Positions 4,822-10,906 of a stretch of 13,580 nucleotides of DNA are shown here, one piece after another (positions within the stretch are counted from its first letter, which is position 1; every line of letters begins with the position of its first letter). A program made the position numbers and the translations under genes. The notes beneath the pieces were generated by a model. The model ran no database searches, was not told where the DNA came from, and worked only from the letters and a program-made list of their open reading frames with translations. The DNA lies in the NCBI GenBank assembly GCA_027021085.1, contig JALUVB010000035.1, positions 1 through 13,580 of the forward strand, read 5' to 3'. The stretch comes from a bacterium. Its GTDB lineage: Bacteria > CAIJMQ01 > JAADFP01.

Positions 4822-4838
4822 TATCTCTTCATCAAGTG

Positions 4839-5720
4839 ATGGAAAACTGGAAGAAGAGCTTGATTGAGCATGTAAAAGGAGATTTTTACCCTGAGTATCC
4901 TTTGAGCAGGTTGAATGCTATGGGAGTGGGGGGGAAGGCAGCTCTTTTTCTTATACTGAACTCGGAAGATGAGATACTTCCCCTGCTAAAAATAAAAGAT
5001 GAGTTTAATTTCCCTCTTTTTGTTATAGGAGAGGGGAAGAATACTCTTTTTCGGGAAGAAGGGTTCCCCGGCGTGGTTTTAAAGCTAAAGGGCAGTTTTC
5101 GGAAAATAATTCCACAGCATGATAAAGTATGGACAGGATGCGGTGTGCGTTTGGCCTCTCTGCTGAATTTTTTTATCTCGCATGCCTGGGGAGGCATAGA
5201 GGGGCTTTCCGGTATCCCGGGAAGTGTGGGGGGAGCGCTGGTAATGAATGCAGGAGGCGAGGGCTTTTCTCTGGGTGAGTATGTGGAGAGCGTAGAGGTG
5301 TGGGAGGGAAGCAGTAAAAGAGTGATGCGTCCCCGCTTCGCTTATAGAGAAGGAGTGCATACCTCCGGTATAATAACGGGGGCATGGCTGCGCTTTGTTT
5401 CTTCGGATAAGAAAAAAGTAAAACAAAAGATAAAGGAGATAATGGAGAAAAGACGCAAGAAATTCCCTCATGCCTATCCTTCCTTAGGCTGTACTTTTAA
5501 GAATCCTTCTCCCCGGATGCCGGCCGGACTTTTGATTGAGCGCGCGGGATTGAAGGGATTGCGGAAAGGAGGGGCGCTTGTTTCTCCCAAGCATGCCAAT
5601 TTTATTGTCCGGGTGGGAAAATGCAAAACAACGGATATCCTGGACTTGATGCAGACTATTCAGGAAAAAGTTTACCGGATGTGGGGGATACTATTGGAGC
5701 CGGAGGTAAGAGTTGTTTAA
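4839..5720 (+). CDS. murB: UDP-N-acetylenolpyruvoylglucosamine reductase
   Basis: MurB reduces UDP-GlcNAc-enolpyruvate to UDP-MurNAc with NADPH and FAD, in the cytoplasmic stage of peptidoglycan synthesis. The protein is about 293 residues. It has the FAD-binding N-domain (IGEGKNTLF near 63-71; GIEGLSGIPGSVGG near 119-132), the FAYREG segment and the C-terminal LEPEVR that supplies the conserved acid. The compact size and YREG loop fit the type II MurB group. The catalytic-serine position in PSLGCTFKNP is Cys218 (codon 5490-5492) instead of Ser; a Cys here occurs in some MurBs and is chemically plausible. The frame opens with GTG at 4836 immediately followed by ATG at 4839; I prefer the ATG. 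There is no clear Shine-Dalgarno. It is the first gene of the division operon and overlaps ftsQ by 8 bases. Confidence 0.93.
   Translation: MENWKKSLIEHVKGDFYPEYPLSRLNAMGVGGKAALFLILNSEDEILPLLKIKDEFNFPLFVIGEGKNTLFREEGFPGVVLKLKGSFRKIIPQHDKVWTGCGVRLASLLNFFISHAWGGIEGLSGIPGSVGGALVMNAGGEGFSLGEYVESVEVWEGSSKRVMRPRFAYREGVHTSGIITGAWLRFVSSDKKKVKQKIKEIMEKRRKKFPHAYPSLGCTFKNPSPRMPAGLLIERAGLKGLRKGGALVSPKHANFIVRVGKCKTTDILDLMQTIQEKVYRMWGILLEPEVRVV
5702..5706 (+). promoter_or_regulatory. Shine-Dalgarno GGAGG deciding the TTG start of ftsQ
   Basis: A full GGAGG lies six bases before TTG at 5713, inside the last codons of murB. No ATG with comparable support lies nearby in that frame, so this site fixes the rare TTG start of the downstream gene. 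Confidence 0.7.
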
Positions 5721-6366
5721 GAAAAAAATCATTTTTAAACTTCTTCCCTGGGTGATAGGGATAGGAGGTTTTTTCTGGTTTATCTTTTTCTCCCCTTTTC
5801 TTCGTATTGCCAGCGTTATAGTAAATCCTCCCTCTTTAGCCTACCTGGTGGAGGAGTCCCGGGGGGAGAATATATTTCTTTTCTCCCTGGCAGACAAGGC
5901 CCGGGCACTGGAGGAAGACCCCCGCATAAAAGAAGTAAGGACAAAAAAATTGCTTCCCTCCACCGTAGAATGGAAAATAGTGCTTAGAAAACCGGTCTTG
6001 TGCATAAGAAAAGGAAGCAAATGGTGGGGGATTGATGAGGAAGGCATGGCTTTTGCGGTAAGTAACCCCGTCAAGTATCCCATTCTTCTGCGCAGAGGAG
6101 AGATAGAAGGAGGGAAAGTGTATCCTGATTTGAAGAGTGCAGTGCTTATTTACAGGGATTTGCAGAAAGAGATTCCGGAACTTATGGTGAGAAGCATAGA
6201 GGTAAAGAGTGAGGCGGTGATTTTCAGGATAGGTAAGGGGATTAAAGTGATATTTGCCCAGAAAGACGTTGAACCCCAGATACGGAGGCTAAAGAAAATT
6301 TTAGGCAGGGTAAAAGTCTCTTATTATATAGACCTGAGATTTGGGGAGCAGGTGATAGTGAAATGA
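5713..6366 (+). CDS. ftsQ: Cell division protein FtsQ (POTRA domain)
   Basis: A single-pass membrane protein of 217 residues. It has a short basic cytoplasmic N-terminus (MFKKKIIFK), one transmembrane helix (about 10-30) and an extracytoplasmic POTRA-like domain. In that domain NIFLFSLADKARALEEDP...IKEVRTKKLLPSTVEWKIVLRKPV has the typical FtsQ/DivIB pattern (loop, helix, then conserved KxxPsxv-i-v-eR/KxPv). A beta-rich C-terminal part follows. FtsQ links FtsB/FtsL to the divisome in the periplasm. It begins at TTG (5713) behind a perfect GGAGG. It overlaps murB by 8 bases and ftsA by 4 (ATGA). The position between murB and ftsA is the classical one. Sequence conservation is low, as usual in this family, so the call rests on topology, the POTRA pattern and context together. 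Confidence 0.85.
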   Translation: MFKKKIIFKLLPWVIGIGGFFWFIFFSPFLRIASVIVNPPSLAYLVEESRGENIFLFSLADKARALEEDPRIKEVRTKKLLPSTVEWKIVLRKPVLCIRKGSKWWGIDEEGMAFAVSNPVKYPILLRRGEIEGGKVYPDLKSAVLIYRDLQKEIPELMVRSIEVKSEAVIFRIGKGIKVIFAQKDVEPQIRRLKKILGRVKVSYYIDLRFGEQVIVK

Positions 6367-7541
6367 GAGATAAGGGATTTTCTCTTGCAGTGGATGTAGG
6401 AACTTCCAAAACCGTGGCTTTTCTCATATCCGGGGAAGAGGAGATTTACGTGGGGGTAGCTCCCTCCCAGGGGATGAATATGGGTAAAATAGTTGACCTG
6501 GAAACACAGGCTGAGAGTATAAAAGAGGCAATAGAGCGCATTTCCTCTCCCTCCCTGCCCGATTCTCTTACCCTGGGTATATCGGGCGGGGTTTTCCATG
6601 TAAGAAAAGAAACCACTACCCTGGAGATTGACTCTTCTGACGTCGAGATAACCGAGAAAGAAATCAAAAAGGTGCTCTCCATGGCGGGTGAAAAGGCCAA
6701 ACGGGGCAGTGGATGGGAGGTTATTCATACTATCCCTCTTACCTACCAGGTGGGAGAGGTATCCGAAGTGGTTAATCCCCTGTATATGGAAGGAAAGAAC
6801 CTAGATACGGAAGCTATGGTTATTCTCACCCTTTCCACTACCCTGGATAATTTTATTCGTTGTGTAAACCGGGCTGGATTCAAAGTGGATAGGATTGTTT
6901 TTTCCCCTTATCCCCAGAGCATATACATCCCGCACGCGGAAGAGAAAAACTTGGGTGTGGCTGTAGTAGATATAGGAGAGGGGACCATAGAGATATGTGT
7001 GTTTCGGGAAGGCAGAATTGAAGAAATAAAAGTGCTGCCGAGGGGCGGGAAGGAGCTTACCCGCATGTTAGCTTCGCGGTTGCGCCTTACCCTCTCTGAG
7101 GCAGAAAGGATAAAGAAAGAAGAAGGGGTGTGCCTCAGGTATCTTTCGGAGCATCGTCCTGTAAAGGCAAAAGGCTTGAGAAAAGAGGTGACTTTCTCCC
7201 AGTGGGAGGTGGCAGAAATCCTGGAGGAAGGGGTGGAAAAGCTACTCAGAGAACTTTCTGTTATTCTTAGGCCCTATCTTGCACATCTTTCTGCCGGATT
7301 TATTCTTACGGGTGGTTCTTCTAACTTGAAAGGAATTGATGAATTCTTTGAAGAATTTTTCAACTTGCCTGTACGGGTATCCCATCCTCCGGGTACTGTG
7401 CTGCCTTCGCTTCCTGAATATGCTTCTGCCTGGGCCCTTATGGAATTTGTCCGCAGAGAGAGCCCGGATAGTTATTCCATTCCCCCCCGTTTTCTCAAAC
7501 CTTTTTATATACTATTGAACTGGATAAAAGAAAAGATATGA
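6363..7541 (+). CDS. ftsA: Cell division actin-like protein FtsA (divergent)
   Basis: An actin/Hsp70-fold ATPase of 392 residues that anchors FtsZ to the membrane. Visible motifs are phosphate-1 AVDVGTSKT (9-17), the 1C domain (about 84-165), the FtsA-like segment VIHTIPLTYQV...VNPLYMEGKNL (120-147), phosphate-2 DIGEGTIEI (203-211) and the adenosine motif ILTGGSSNLKG (314-324). The C-terminal [17 protein letters not shown] can form the amphipathic membrane-targeting helix. Phosphate-2 departs from the usual DIGGGTTD at two positions (G to E, T to I), which may weaken ATP hydrolysis. AGGTGA lies seven bases before the ATG. The gene overlaps ftsQ by ATGA and overlaps the ftsZ-like gene by ATGA. 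FtsA identity is well supported by order and size; biochemical competence is less certain. Confidence 0.88.
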   Translation: MRDKGFSLAVDVGTSKTVAFLISGEEEIYVGVAPSQGMNMGKIVDLETQAESIKEAIERISSPSLPDSLTLGISGGVFHVRKETTTLEIDSSDVEITEKEIKKVLSMAGEKAKRGSGWEVIHTIPLTYQVGEVSEVVNPLYMEGKNLDTEAMVILTLSTTLDNFIRCVNRAGFKVDRIVFSPYPQSIYIPHAEEKNLGVAVVDIGEGTIEICVFREGRIEEIKVLPRGGKELTRMLASRLRLTLSEAERIKKEEGVCLRYLSEHRPVKAKGLRKEVTFSQWEVAEILEEGVEKLLRELSVILRPYLAHLSAGFILTGGSSNLKGIDEFFEEFFNLPVRVSHPPGTVLPSLPEYASAWALMEFVRRESPDSYSIPPRFLKPFYILLNWIKEKI

Positions 7542-8515
7542 CTTTTGAACTGGAATTATCTACTATTTCCGGGATAAAAATCCTGGGATTGGGAGGGGCA
7601 GGGGTAAATATACTGAAAGCTTTCCAGGAGCTTTCTTTAAATGGCCTGGAACTTATTGCCCTGGATTCATCCCCCCTTTCTCTGGAAGGAATAAGCCTTC
7701 CCTACAAGGTGCAGCTCAGCCGGGGAGAAGGCAGAAAGAAAGGAAGTCTGAGTCTATTGAGAGAAGAATTGTCTCCTTACCTGGAGAATGCCGAGATTGC
7801 TTTGATAGTCTCCGGTCTGGGAGGGGAAACCAGCGCCTTATATCTCCCTCCCCTGACCAGAATCCTGAAGGACCTGGGTATTTTAACTATTGCTGTGCTT
7901 CTTTTCCCCTTTCATTTTGAAGGGAAAATGCGCAGAAACAGGGCGGAAAGCATCAAAGAGAGCTTAGGGGAAAGCGCTGATGCCATATTGGTTTTCCCGA
8001 ATGAGCATTTTTACCAGTTGTATCCCAATCTTCCTCTGGCGGAATTTTTCTCCCGGGTGAACTCCACGATTTGCGATGTGGTAAATGGCCTGCTTGAACC
8101 AATGCTTTACCCTTCTCTTATCAACCTGGAAGTCAGCACCCTGCGCCGGATTCTGGAAGGGGCGGGAGAGGTAATGATAGGATGGGCGGAAGAGAGCGGG
8201 GAAAAGCGTGCGTTGAAGGCAATAGAAAAAGGTTTTAACTCTATGGGCTGGAAAAAGGAGGAATCCAGGAAGATTAAAAGACTGCTCATAAGTATTGCCG
8301 GCGGGGAGGATCTCACCATCCAGGAGGTATCAAAAATATGTGAGTCTCTGACTTATCGGGTATATCCTGAGGCAGACATTGCCGTAGGCACAGTGACGAG
8401 AGAAAATTTTAGAGGTATAATAAGGCTGACTTTCTGCGGAATTAAGTCTTTGGGGAGCAAGCTTTCCCCTAAACCGCTTATAGAAGAAAGGAAAACGCTA
8501 TGGGAGAAGATTTAA
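7538..8515 (+). CDS. Divergent FtsZ/tubulin-superfamily protein with degraded GTPase motifs
   Basis: A 325-residue FtsZ homologue in the normal ftsZ position. Recognisable parts are T1 GLGGAGVN (17-24), the strand-loop [20 protein letters not shown] (113-132), [10 protein letters not shown] (147-156), Asn175 aligned to the guanine-contacting Asn of E. coli FtsZ, and the helix-to-C-domain segment PSLINLEV...[13 protein letters not shown] (192-233). Key losses follow. The tubulin signature GGGTGTG reads GGETSAL (95-101). The T3 loop is replaced by a basic stretch, SRGEGRKKG. The T7 catalytic NxDxxD reads NLEVST (196-201). The protein ends without a linker or an FtsA-binding tail. Nucleotide may bind, but polymer-stimulated hydrolysis is unlikely. 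It overlaps ftsA by ATGA with no strong Shine-Dalgarno and overlaps glyA by 16 bases. I give no symbol because a canonical ftsZ may exist elsewhere. Homology is firm; function is inferred. Confidence 0.85.
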
Positions 8516-9738
8516 AAGTTGTTGACCCCCAGATTTATCACTCCATAAAAAATGAAGAAGACAGGGAAATGAACAACCTGGTTCTTATTGCTTCAGAAAA
8601 TTACACTTCCCGGGCAGTAAGAGAAGCACAGGGCTCCATTCTTACCCACAAATACGCGGAAGGCTATCCGGGAAAGAGGTATTACGGAGGATGTGAATAT
8701 GTGGATGTAGTGGAAAAATTAGCCGTGGAAAGAGCCAAGAAACTCTTTTCCTCTCCCCACGCGAATGTACAGCCTCACTCGGGGAGTCAGGCAAACATGG
8801 CTGTCTATTTCTCGGTGATGAATCCGGGCGATGTTCTCCTGGGAATGGATATTTCTTCCGGTGGGCATCTCACGCATGGACACAGGGTAAATTTCTCCGG
8901 AAAAGTATTTCGTCCATGTTTCTACGGGGTTAGAAAAGAGGATGAACTTATTGATTTTAACGATGTGGAGGATAAAGCCAAGAAATATCTTCCCCGCATT
9001 ATCGTATGCGGTGCAAGTGCATACTCTCGTATAATAGATTTCAAGACTTTTCGTGAGATTGCCGACAAAGTAGGAGCATACCTCCTGGCGGATATTGCTC
9101 ATATAGCGGGTGAAGTGGCTGCCGGCGTGCATCCTTCTCCTTTCCCGCATGCTCACTTTGTTACTACTACTACTCATAAGACATTGAGGGGGCCCAGGGG
9201 AGGGCTGATTATGTGTAAGGAAGAATTTGCCCATGCTATTGATACCATGGTGTTTCCCGGTATCCAGGGTGGACCGCTCATGCACATTATTGCAGCCAAG
9301 GCAGTATGTTTAAAAGAAGCCCTCTCAGAAGACTTTAAAGAGTACCAGAAACAGATAGTAAAAAATGCGCGGCTTCTGGCAAATTTGCTCCGGGAGAAGG
9401 GATATAGAATAGTAAGCGGAGGCACGGATAATCATCTCTTCCTGGTCGATTTGAGGGCTAAAAAAATGACCGGCAAAGAAGCAGAAACAATGCTGGGAAA
9501 GGCAGGCATAAGTGTAAATAAAAACACCATTCCCTTTGACCCTCTGCCTCCTGCTTTAACCAGCGGGATAAGAATCGGCACGCCTTCTATTACTACACGG
9601 GGGATGAAAGAAGAAGAAATAGAAATCATAGCCAATTTAATAGACGAGGTGCTGTCTCACCGGGGGGAAGAGAAAATTTTAGAAAAAGCAAAAAAGGAGG
9701 TGAGAGAATTGTGCGAAAGGTTTCCTGTTTCTTTTTAG
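8500..9738 (+). CDS. glyA: Serine hydroxymethyltransferase
   Basis: A PLP enzyme that interconverts serine plus tetrahydrofolate with glycine plus 5,10-methylene-THF in the cytoplasm, supplying one-carbon units. It is a standard length at 412 residues. Family signatures are clear: LIASENYTS (29-37), [13 protein letters not shown] (52-64), [11 protein letters not shown] (93-103), [14 protein letters not shown] (196-209) with Asp198 and His201 for PLP, and [14 protein letters not shown] with the Schiff-base lysine at 227. The C-domain ends with [15 protein letters not shown], typical of bacterial GlyA. AAAGGA precedes the ATG at 8500, which lies inside the end of the ftsZ-like gene. Coupling of a one-carbon gene to division genes is unusual but may simply reflect operon growth. 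No key residue is missing. Confidence 0.96.
9694..9703 (+). promoter_or_regulatory. Strong Shine-Dalgarno AAGGAGGTGA inside the end of glyA
   Basis: This is a complete anti-16S match, seven bases before GTG at 9711, embedded in glyA codons for Lys-Lys-Glu-Val-Arg. It supports the GTG start of the secreted-protein gene and indicates independent, efficient initiation there. Confidence 0.75.
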
Positions 9739-10526
9739 TATTCAGCCTGTTGTTAATCACCCTGCAGTTATATCCTGCTGAAGAAAAATTTGGCTATCAG
9801 CTGGTAAAGATGAACGACAAGATAGCCATGGTAAAGCTATTTTCAGAAGGATACAGCTACCGGATTCTACCGGAGGTTTTCAGGATAGGGAGCTATCTTG
9901 CTTATTTTGCCGCACAAGATTTTACCAATAAAGAGGAAATGACTTTAAAAAGGTTTGACGAGGTTAAGGTGGTAATGGATGAGGAAAACCAAAAAGGAAT
10001 AAAAATAAAATTTGTCTTACAGGACCAGGAGCAGCGGGATATTACTGATTACGTGCTTGAGACAAACCTGGAGATAAGAAAAGGCTATCCTGGTTTGGTT
10101 CTGGTCTCCAAACTTAGGTACATAGGAGAAGGTAAAGCAGAAGCAGGTTTCAACTGGGGATTCAGTGACCACTTTAAATACTATGTGGTTCCAGAGGGCA
10201 GAAAGGTCAGGGCATTTACTATAGTAAGAAAAGGTCTGCTCTCGGGCAGGTCCATGAAGATAGGAAAGGGTGCATATCCCTGGGTATGGTTTACTGACGG
10301 AAAAGGCAAGGGATTGGGCATGATAACCGATGGCATGCTGGTGGCGGGAGTTCTGGGGGGAGAACTGCAGGTGGGGGTTAGCGATGTCCCTCCCAAGAAG
10401 AAGCTTGCTTCAGGAGAAAGTATGGATGTAATCTTCTTCCTGCTTCCTACCATGAAAGGCTACAAACCGGTAAGGAAGATGTTTGAAGAGACGAAAGGGG
10501 TTCGCTGGGAGACAGATAAATGGTGA
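9711..10526 (+). CDS. Secreted protein of unknown function
   Basis: I do not recognise this 271-residue protein. It starts with a clear Sec signal peptide: basic MRK, then a hydrophobic run to about residue 21, and a likely cleavage site after LYPA before EEKFGYQ. No lipobox is present, so it should be released into the periplasm or outside. The mature part is rich in alternating beta-strand patterns (for example [28 protein letters not shown]) and aromatic residues ([17 protein letters not shown]), suggesting a beta-sandwich, possibly of galactose-mutarotase type; that is inference only. The GTG start has an excellent Shine-Dalgarno and overlaps glyA by 28 bases. It overlaps the next membrane-protein gene by 7 bases, so the pair probably acts together at the envelope. 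Confidence 0.75.
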
Positions 10527-10906
10527 AAAGTAAAGAGTATAAAAAAATCATGCTGAGGAGCCTGCTCTGGCCAGGCTGGGGGCACCTGTATGCAGGGGAA
10601 AAGAAAAAGGGGTGGATCCTTTTTACCTTGACGCTTATAGGCCTGGTTCTCCTCGCCTGGGGGGCACAACTGTGGTTATTCCCCCAAGGTGCAGCAGTAA
10701 AAGAGAAAGAGGTAAATATAGATGAAGAGGGAATAATCCTGGATGAGGAGGTTGACCTGGAGGCAACCGAGGAAGTATCCTCTGCTATTCCTCCTCCTTC
10801 ACCGCTTTCCATTGTACTGCTACTGGTGGGGCTGGGAGTACCTTTCTGGACAGCCCTTTACGGGATAAAGGATAGCAGAAGGCTTTCTGTAAAGAAGGGA
10901 GTGTGA
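10520..10906 (+). CDS. Small two-helix membrane protein with PGWGHLYAG motif
   Basis: A 128-residue protein. The basic N-terminus is followed by LWPGWGHLYAGEKKKG (16-31), a motif common in small DUF5683/TM2-like membrane proteins of unknown role (family resemblance only). The first transmembrane helix spans about 31-54 and the second about 95-115, with a basic tail. Positive-inside logic places both ends in the cytoplasm and the acidic loop 55-94 outside. That loop contains KEVNIDEEGII (63-73), matching 7 of 11 residues of KEVPVNDEGII in the lipoprotein encoded next door. A GGGAG lies eight bases before the ATG, and the gene overlaps the upstream secreted-protein gene by 7 bases. Function is unknown. 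Confidence 0.75.
   Translation: MVKSKEYKKIMLRSLLWPGWGHLYAGEKKKGWILFTLTLIGLVLLAWGAQLWLFPQGAAVKEKEVNIDEEGIILDEEVDLEATEEVSSAIPPPSPLSIVLLLVGLGVPFWTALYGIKDSRRLSVKKGV

Follow-up and report, generated by a model that had tools for sequence, protein, structure and literature searches.

The only detectable FtsZ in one family of uncultured bacteria appears to be a pseudo-GTPase. We favor, with moderate confidence, a reading in which it would be kept as a scaffold that is either static or driven by a partner, the likely nucleotide-driven partner being FtsA. The gene lies in the division operon on the stretch of DNA analyzed here, which is 13,580 nucleotides long (the window). We found no report of a natural pseudo-GTPase division FtsZ in the open-access literature.

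An FtsZ orthologue in the division operon

The genes around ftsZ in the window are the following:

4836..5720, + strand: murB (Pfam MurB_C)
5713..6366, + strand: ftsQ (Pfam FtsQ_DivIB_C and POTRA_1)
6363..7541, + strand: ftsA, with a 4-nt overlap (ATGA) with ftsZ (TIGR01174, 228.3 bits, above the cut-off; motif alignment)
7538..8515, + strand: ftsZ orthologue with GTPase motifs lost, 325 aa (Pfam, TIGR00065, AlphaFold2, dN/dS)
8500..9738, + strand: glyA, overlapping ftsZ at its start and in the same position in both families described below (Pfam SHMT; loci L034, L035 and L037)

The predicted FtsZ matches the Pfam domains Tubulin (58 bits) and FtsZ_C (49.4 bits), and it scores 155.5 bits against the TIGR00065 ftsZ model, below the equivalog cut-off of 295.2 bits. 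FtsZs of a sister family score 277.6 to 299.3 bits against the same model. For the protein from the second genus of the family (genome G002), the Tubulin match is below the cut-off (21 of 33 bits) and the FtsZ_C match is above it (47 of 27). AlphaFold2 models of both proteins have an FtsZ-like fold (pLDDT 85.9 and pTM 0.84 for the window protein, pLDDT 86.4 for G002). The PDB structures nearest to the window model are FtsZs, including E. coli FtsZ (6ll6; VIA Z 36.6, rmsd 1.8 over 290 residues), and Foldseek places the model in the FtsZ/tubulin fold (E 6e-30). FtsZ also gives the best PDB sequence match (5e-38); 3zid, which we take to be a CetZ structure, reaches only 4e-5, so the protein is not closer to CetZ. 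Between the window genome and its relative in the same genus (G001), dN/dS is 0.036 for ftsZ, 0.038 for ftsA, 0.044 for glyA, and 0.033 for the T4 region of ftsZ. The window FtsZ is thus under purifying selection and, as modeled, folded. An earlier note on this DNA had described an FtsZ homologue at the ftsZ locus that has lost its GTPase signatures, and the Pfam matches, synteny, phylogeny, and alignment bear this out.

Three further genes in the window were recorded. The 271-aa protein at 9711-10526 has a hydrophobic N-terminus and no Pfam match; it also follows glyA in G001 and G002 and was not seen there in the sister-family genome G004. A small hydrophobic 128-aa protein at 10520-10906, likewise without a Pfam match, is present in G001 too. 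A phosphotransferase-like (APH/fructosamine kinase) gene is intact at 698-1597 and split into two frames in G001 (L034 379-1288). A scan of viral contigs with GlyA returned nothing useful.

A family and its sister family

The family comprises three metagenome-assembled genomes (MAGs) in two genera: the window genome (G000), G001, and G002, which are 93.9, 86, and 64% complete, respectively. In public records G001 is a Caldisericota bacterium (JAADFP01) and G002 is Candidatus Calescamantes bacterium AUK166 (JAGGYA01); the labels disagree as to phylum, and Calescamantes is the likelier. The FtsZ of G001 is 95% identical to that of the window, and the FtsZ of G002 is 43% identical. Both genomes carry the altered loops and the same gene order.

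The four genomes of the sister family (G003-G006) retain T1 to T4, including GGGTGTG. In all four the T7 loop reads NMDMAA, which preserves Asp209 and has Ala instead of Asp212. The sister-family locus, read at length in G004, has the order uvrD, M50 protease gene, murB, ftsQ, ftsA, ftsZ, glyA, and this arrangement is syntenic in both families. The FtsZs of the two families form one group on a long branch (ultrafast bootstrap 98, SH-aLRT 95; 98 in a second tree). In comparisons between genomes, the conservation of FtsZ usually exceeds that of FtsA by about 14 points, whereas here it does not exceed it. Judged from gene order and phylogeny, the gene is a vertically inherited FtsZ orthologue. 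The simplest order of loss, which we infer from the two families, would be Asp212 first, followed by collapse of T2 to T4.

Loops lost and kept

Motif losses were read from an alignment with 68 other FtsZs; at 59 columns, at least 90% of those sequences share a conserved residue. The window protein keeps 29 of the 59 and the protein of the second genus 27; every other sequence keeps at least 36 (median 58). Residue numbers are those of E. coli FtsZ, transferred by way of the alignment. The regions concerned are the following (evidence is the alignment unless stated):

7583..7612, + strand: T1 loop, retained (GGAGVN)
7658..7684, + strand: T2 loop ALDSSPLSL, canonical NTD lost
7709..7744, + strand: T3 region, about 10 alignment columns deleted
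7820..7840, + strand: T4 loop, GGGTGTG changed to GGETSAL (GGDISQK in the second genus)
8123..8140, + strand: T7 loop, NxDxxD changed to NLEVST (PLDFPT in the second genus, NMDMAA in the sister family)
8276..8362, + strand: S8-H10 region, with unusually high conservation between the two families (regional identities)
8447..8512, + strand: short C-terminal stretch with P..EER and no long linker (family alignment; pLDDT <50 over most of residues 307-325)

The T4 glycines Gly107, Gly109, and Gly111, the T7 Asp212, the T2 Asp, and the T3 loop are gone in both genera, and the NTD of T2 has become DSS in the window protein and DTL in the second genus. The position of Gly107 is acidic in both genera (Glu in the window, Asp in the second genus), and such a residue in the phosphate loop would be expected to disfavor a bound triphosphate. 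Asp209 of T7 is kept, within the family, only in the second genus. The window protein also carries Leu in place of Phe39 and, in H7, Asn in place of Asp187. Between the two genera, identity is 55% over the altered T4-H4 region, versus about 44% overall. Conserved features include T5 PFxFEG and T6 Asn155. The earlier note had placed GGETSAL at codons 7820-7840 and NLEVST at 8123-8140, and both positions are correct; T1 GGAGVN, the FEGKMR block, and the Asn at the guanine-contact position (T6 Asn155), all claimed there, are likewise present in the alignment. The losses of the T2 NTD and the T3 loop, F39L, and the H7 Asp187Asn change go beyond it.

We consider it very likely, from the residues lost, that the FtsZ of this family no longer hydrolyzes GTP, and likely that it no longer binds a nucleotide triphosphate, given the Glu or Asp where the phosphate-loop Gly107 was. 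Retention of T1, T5, and the T6 Asn means that weak nucleotide binding may remain.

Two regions outside the pocket are informative. Over S8-H10 the window protein is 57% identical to the sister family, and ordinary FtsZs are 49% identical among themselves; one helix of this region lies at the contact between FtsZ subunits (PMC3618327). At the C-terminus, the chain continues for about 20 residues past the globular domain, and P..EER near the end is common to all three family members. The conservation of P..EER is ambiguous because the EER codons coincide with the likely glyA Shine-Dalgarno sequence. The earlier claim that the C-terminal linker and FtsA-binding tail are lacking therefore stands in part: the linker is absent and no canonical tail is visible, but the family shares this short P..EER stretch.

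The sole detectable FtsZ

No second FtsZ was identified in the window genome with PF00091. TIGR00065 and a seven-sequence lineage profile recovered one FtsZ, and no second, in each of the seven genomes of the class (G000-G006), and none of the seven has a match to PF13809 (Tubulin_2) at an E-value of 1 or less. The lineage profile gave one extra match, C18 in G002 (E 0.003), and this ORF resembles a type IV pilin and not an FtsZ. By these searches the window-type protein is the sole detectable FtsZ of the family, within the limits of incomplete assemblies: all family genomes are incomplete MAGs, and each may have failed to capture a second FtsZ.

An FtsZ match was obtained in 233 of 242 genomes with a completeness of at least 90%, and the weakest best E-value in these 233 is that of the window genome (6.2e-45). 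The next weakest are G188 and G249, in each of which the gene is broken up by contig ends, then G040, G172, G132, G125, G176, and G107. Wherever T4 could be read, which for G188 was on a partial contig piece and for G249 nowhere, a GxGxG-type core is preserved, the mildest departures being GKGLGTG in G172 and GGGTGTA in G132. G172 (L132), from an unrelated family, has another divergent sole FtsZ, with T2 CDSSM and T4 GKGLGTG, which departs less than the window protein does. In G040 (L041), G176 (L128), and G132 (L131), T4 is intact or near-intact and the second T7 acid is changed (DFGS, DFGS, and DFSA, respectively).

Other components of the divisome

The FtsA encoded upstream of ftsZ keeps the phosphate and adenosine (ATP-binding) motifs and a C-terminal amphipathic-looking segment. 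The ATGA overlap of the ftsA stop and ftsZ start is found in all three family members, and in the sister family the two genes are separated by gaps of 98-181 nt. The FtsA position aligned with Arg300 of PDB 7q6d is 97% conserved elsewhere; it is Gly or Tyr in the family and Lys in the sister family. We take 7q6d to be E. coli FtsA and Arg300 to be required for FtsZ binding, in which case the FtsA-FtsZ contact is probably altered.

The division cluster of G001, G002, and G004 includes mraZ, rsmH, an FtsI-type penicillin-binding protein (PBP) gene, murE, murF, mraY, murD, and ftsW; in G002 and G004, murG and murC were also observed. The fragments of the window genome are consistent with this order. 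Gene names were assigned from order, size, and sequence, and ftsW and the PBP were checked separately. There is one SEDS protein, and its score exceeds the FtsW cut-off. Where detected, G000-G006 (L115, L118, L119, L054-L059, L068-L074) have one SEDS protein (FtsW) and one strong class-B PBP match. MreB is present in these genomes, the RodA/PBP2 pair was not found, and mreB lies beside other genes with no evident mreCD.

MinC and SepF, considered as alternative partners, were not found in any of the seven genomes. The ESCRT-III search (PF03357) also returned no match, its control responding weakly, in Sulfolobus, and replacement of FtsZ by ESCRT-III is unsupported.

A proposed scaffold model and its alternatives

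We propose that the FtsZ of this family would serve as a static scaffold at the membrane, where it would still assemble either head-to-tail or templated by a partner. FtsA, an actin-like ATPase whose gene overlaps ftsZ at an ATGA junction and whose ATP motifs and membrane tail are kept, would recruit or order FtsZ. The scaffold would then bring FtsQ, FtsW, and FtsI to the septum, and constriction would be driven by cell-wall synthesis and not by FtsZ treadmilling. Cells of this family would thus probably divide without a GTP-driven engine. The earlier suggestion of static assembly is supported as a probable reading, given the lost GTPase signatures. S8-H10, as the part best shared with the sister family, favors self-association or docking to FtsA.

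Several observations in model organisms bear on this proposal. In Bacillus subtilis, treadmilling is needed to start constriction and dispensable afterwards (PMC8079713). In E. coli, FtsZ(D212A) and FtsA overproduced over the cell's own FtsZ give functional extra septa (PMC4383033). Cells with FtsZ84 divide in vivo, though the protein does not assemble in vitro, and F39L is an intragenic suppressor of this T4 mutant in E. coli (PMC4603965). In our alignment F39L is a fixed change in the family that the sister family does not share, a suggestive correlation only. It is possible, and we say so tentatively, that the engine was dismantled stepwise until FtsZ neither bound nor hydrolyzed GTP and FtsA or septal synthesis supplied the drive.

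Of the alternatives, a rearranged site that still binds or turns over nucleotide, slowly or with another nucleotide, so that assembly stays nucleotide-regulated, is unlikely. In its favor, the protein still has the T1 glycines, T5 PFxFEG, and T6 Asn, the family conserves its altered T4-H4 region, and another natural low-GTPase FtsZ has been described (PMC8953583). These points are set against the absence from both genera of the T2 Asp, the T3 loop, the three T4 glycines, and Asp212, the acidic residue at position 107 in both, and an Asp209 kept in the second genus only. Rather less probable is an FtsZ that acts as a monomeric FtsA adaptor and not as a polymer, with FtsA filaments alone organizing septal synthesis. 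The 4-nt ftsA-ftsZ overlap suggests coupled, near-equal synthesis, FtsA keeps its motifs, and FtsZ has lost its linker. Against this reading, conservation of S8-H10, which lies at the FtsZ-FtsZ interface (PMC3618327), exceeds that among ordinary FtsZs, and the search for MinC, which is known to bind H10, gave no match.

The earlier note had also suggested that this protein caps or regulates a true FtsZ. This was not borne out, as two HMMs and the lineage profile revealed no second FtsZ in the three family genomes. We consider it improbable that a second, canonical copy was missed: the MAGs are in 307, about 160, and about 30 contigs and are 94, 86, and 64% complete, but no second copy appears in the four sister-family genomes either, the gene holds the orthologous ftsZ slot between ftsA and glyA in both families, and independent omission from all three genomes would be improbable. 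The least credible explanation by far is that the gene is decaying or artefactual, whether as a pseudogene, a chimera, or the product of sequencing error. The window does come from a fragmented MAG; against this, the frame is open, the same kind of changes occur in three genomes, and two members have confident predicted folds. Sequencing error and pseudogene status in particular are ruled out by the shared changes and the dN/dS of 0.036. Relatives with intact motifs in the same clade, together with signs of sequencing error, had been named as a refutation; we found instead that G001 and G002 carry the altered loops and that the gene is under purifying selection.

The need for FtsZ GTP turnover and treadmilling in division has so far been tested mainly with laboratory mutants and drugs. 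A natural lineage whose sole detectable FtsZ has lost its catalytic and nucleotide loops, together with a closely related lineage partway to that state, would make this need directly testable and allow the scaffold role of FtsZ to be told apart from its motor role.

Comparison with known systems

Canonical FtsZ (TIGR00065; PDB 6ll6 and 5zue) and the window protein are alike in fold, operon position, T1, T5, the T6 Asn, and phylogenetic orthology. The window protein differs in the loss of T2, T3, T4, and T7 residues and in having neither a long linker nor a canonical C-terminal tail. The laboratory mutants FtsZ84 (G105S), E. coli D212A, and B. subtilis D213A likewise lose T4 or T7 function, and FtsZ84, whose suppressor residue F39L is present in the window family, still supports division in permissive conditions (PMC4603965). 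These mutants are single substitutions, whereas in the window family the whole pocket is altered and the changes are fixed in nature; moreover, the D212A and D213A studies expressed the mutant alongside wild-type FtsZ (PMC4383033, PMC8079713). The FtsZ of Candidatus Thiosymbion oneisti is a natural protein reported to have weak GTPase activity and not to polymerize in vitro (PMC8953583). Its abstract describes a weakly active protein, not one that has lost its signatures.

FtsZl-1 and FtsZl-2, like the window protein, are divergent members of the FtsZ-tubulin superfamily, and the earlier note had cited them as families with altered catalytic loops. The comparison is inapt, as these families are recognized by an intact GGGTG(S/T)G T4 loop (PMC2875224), the very part that is lost here. 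They also lie in other neighborhoods (for FtsZl-1, with vWA, kinase, and GTPase genes), whereas the window protein is the division-operon copy and lacks T4.
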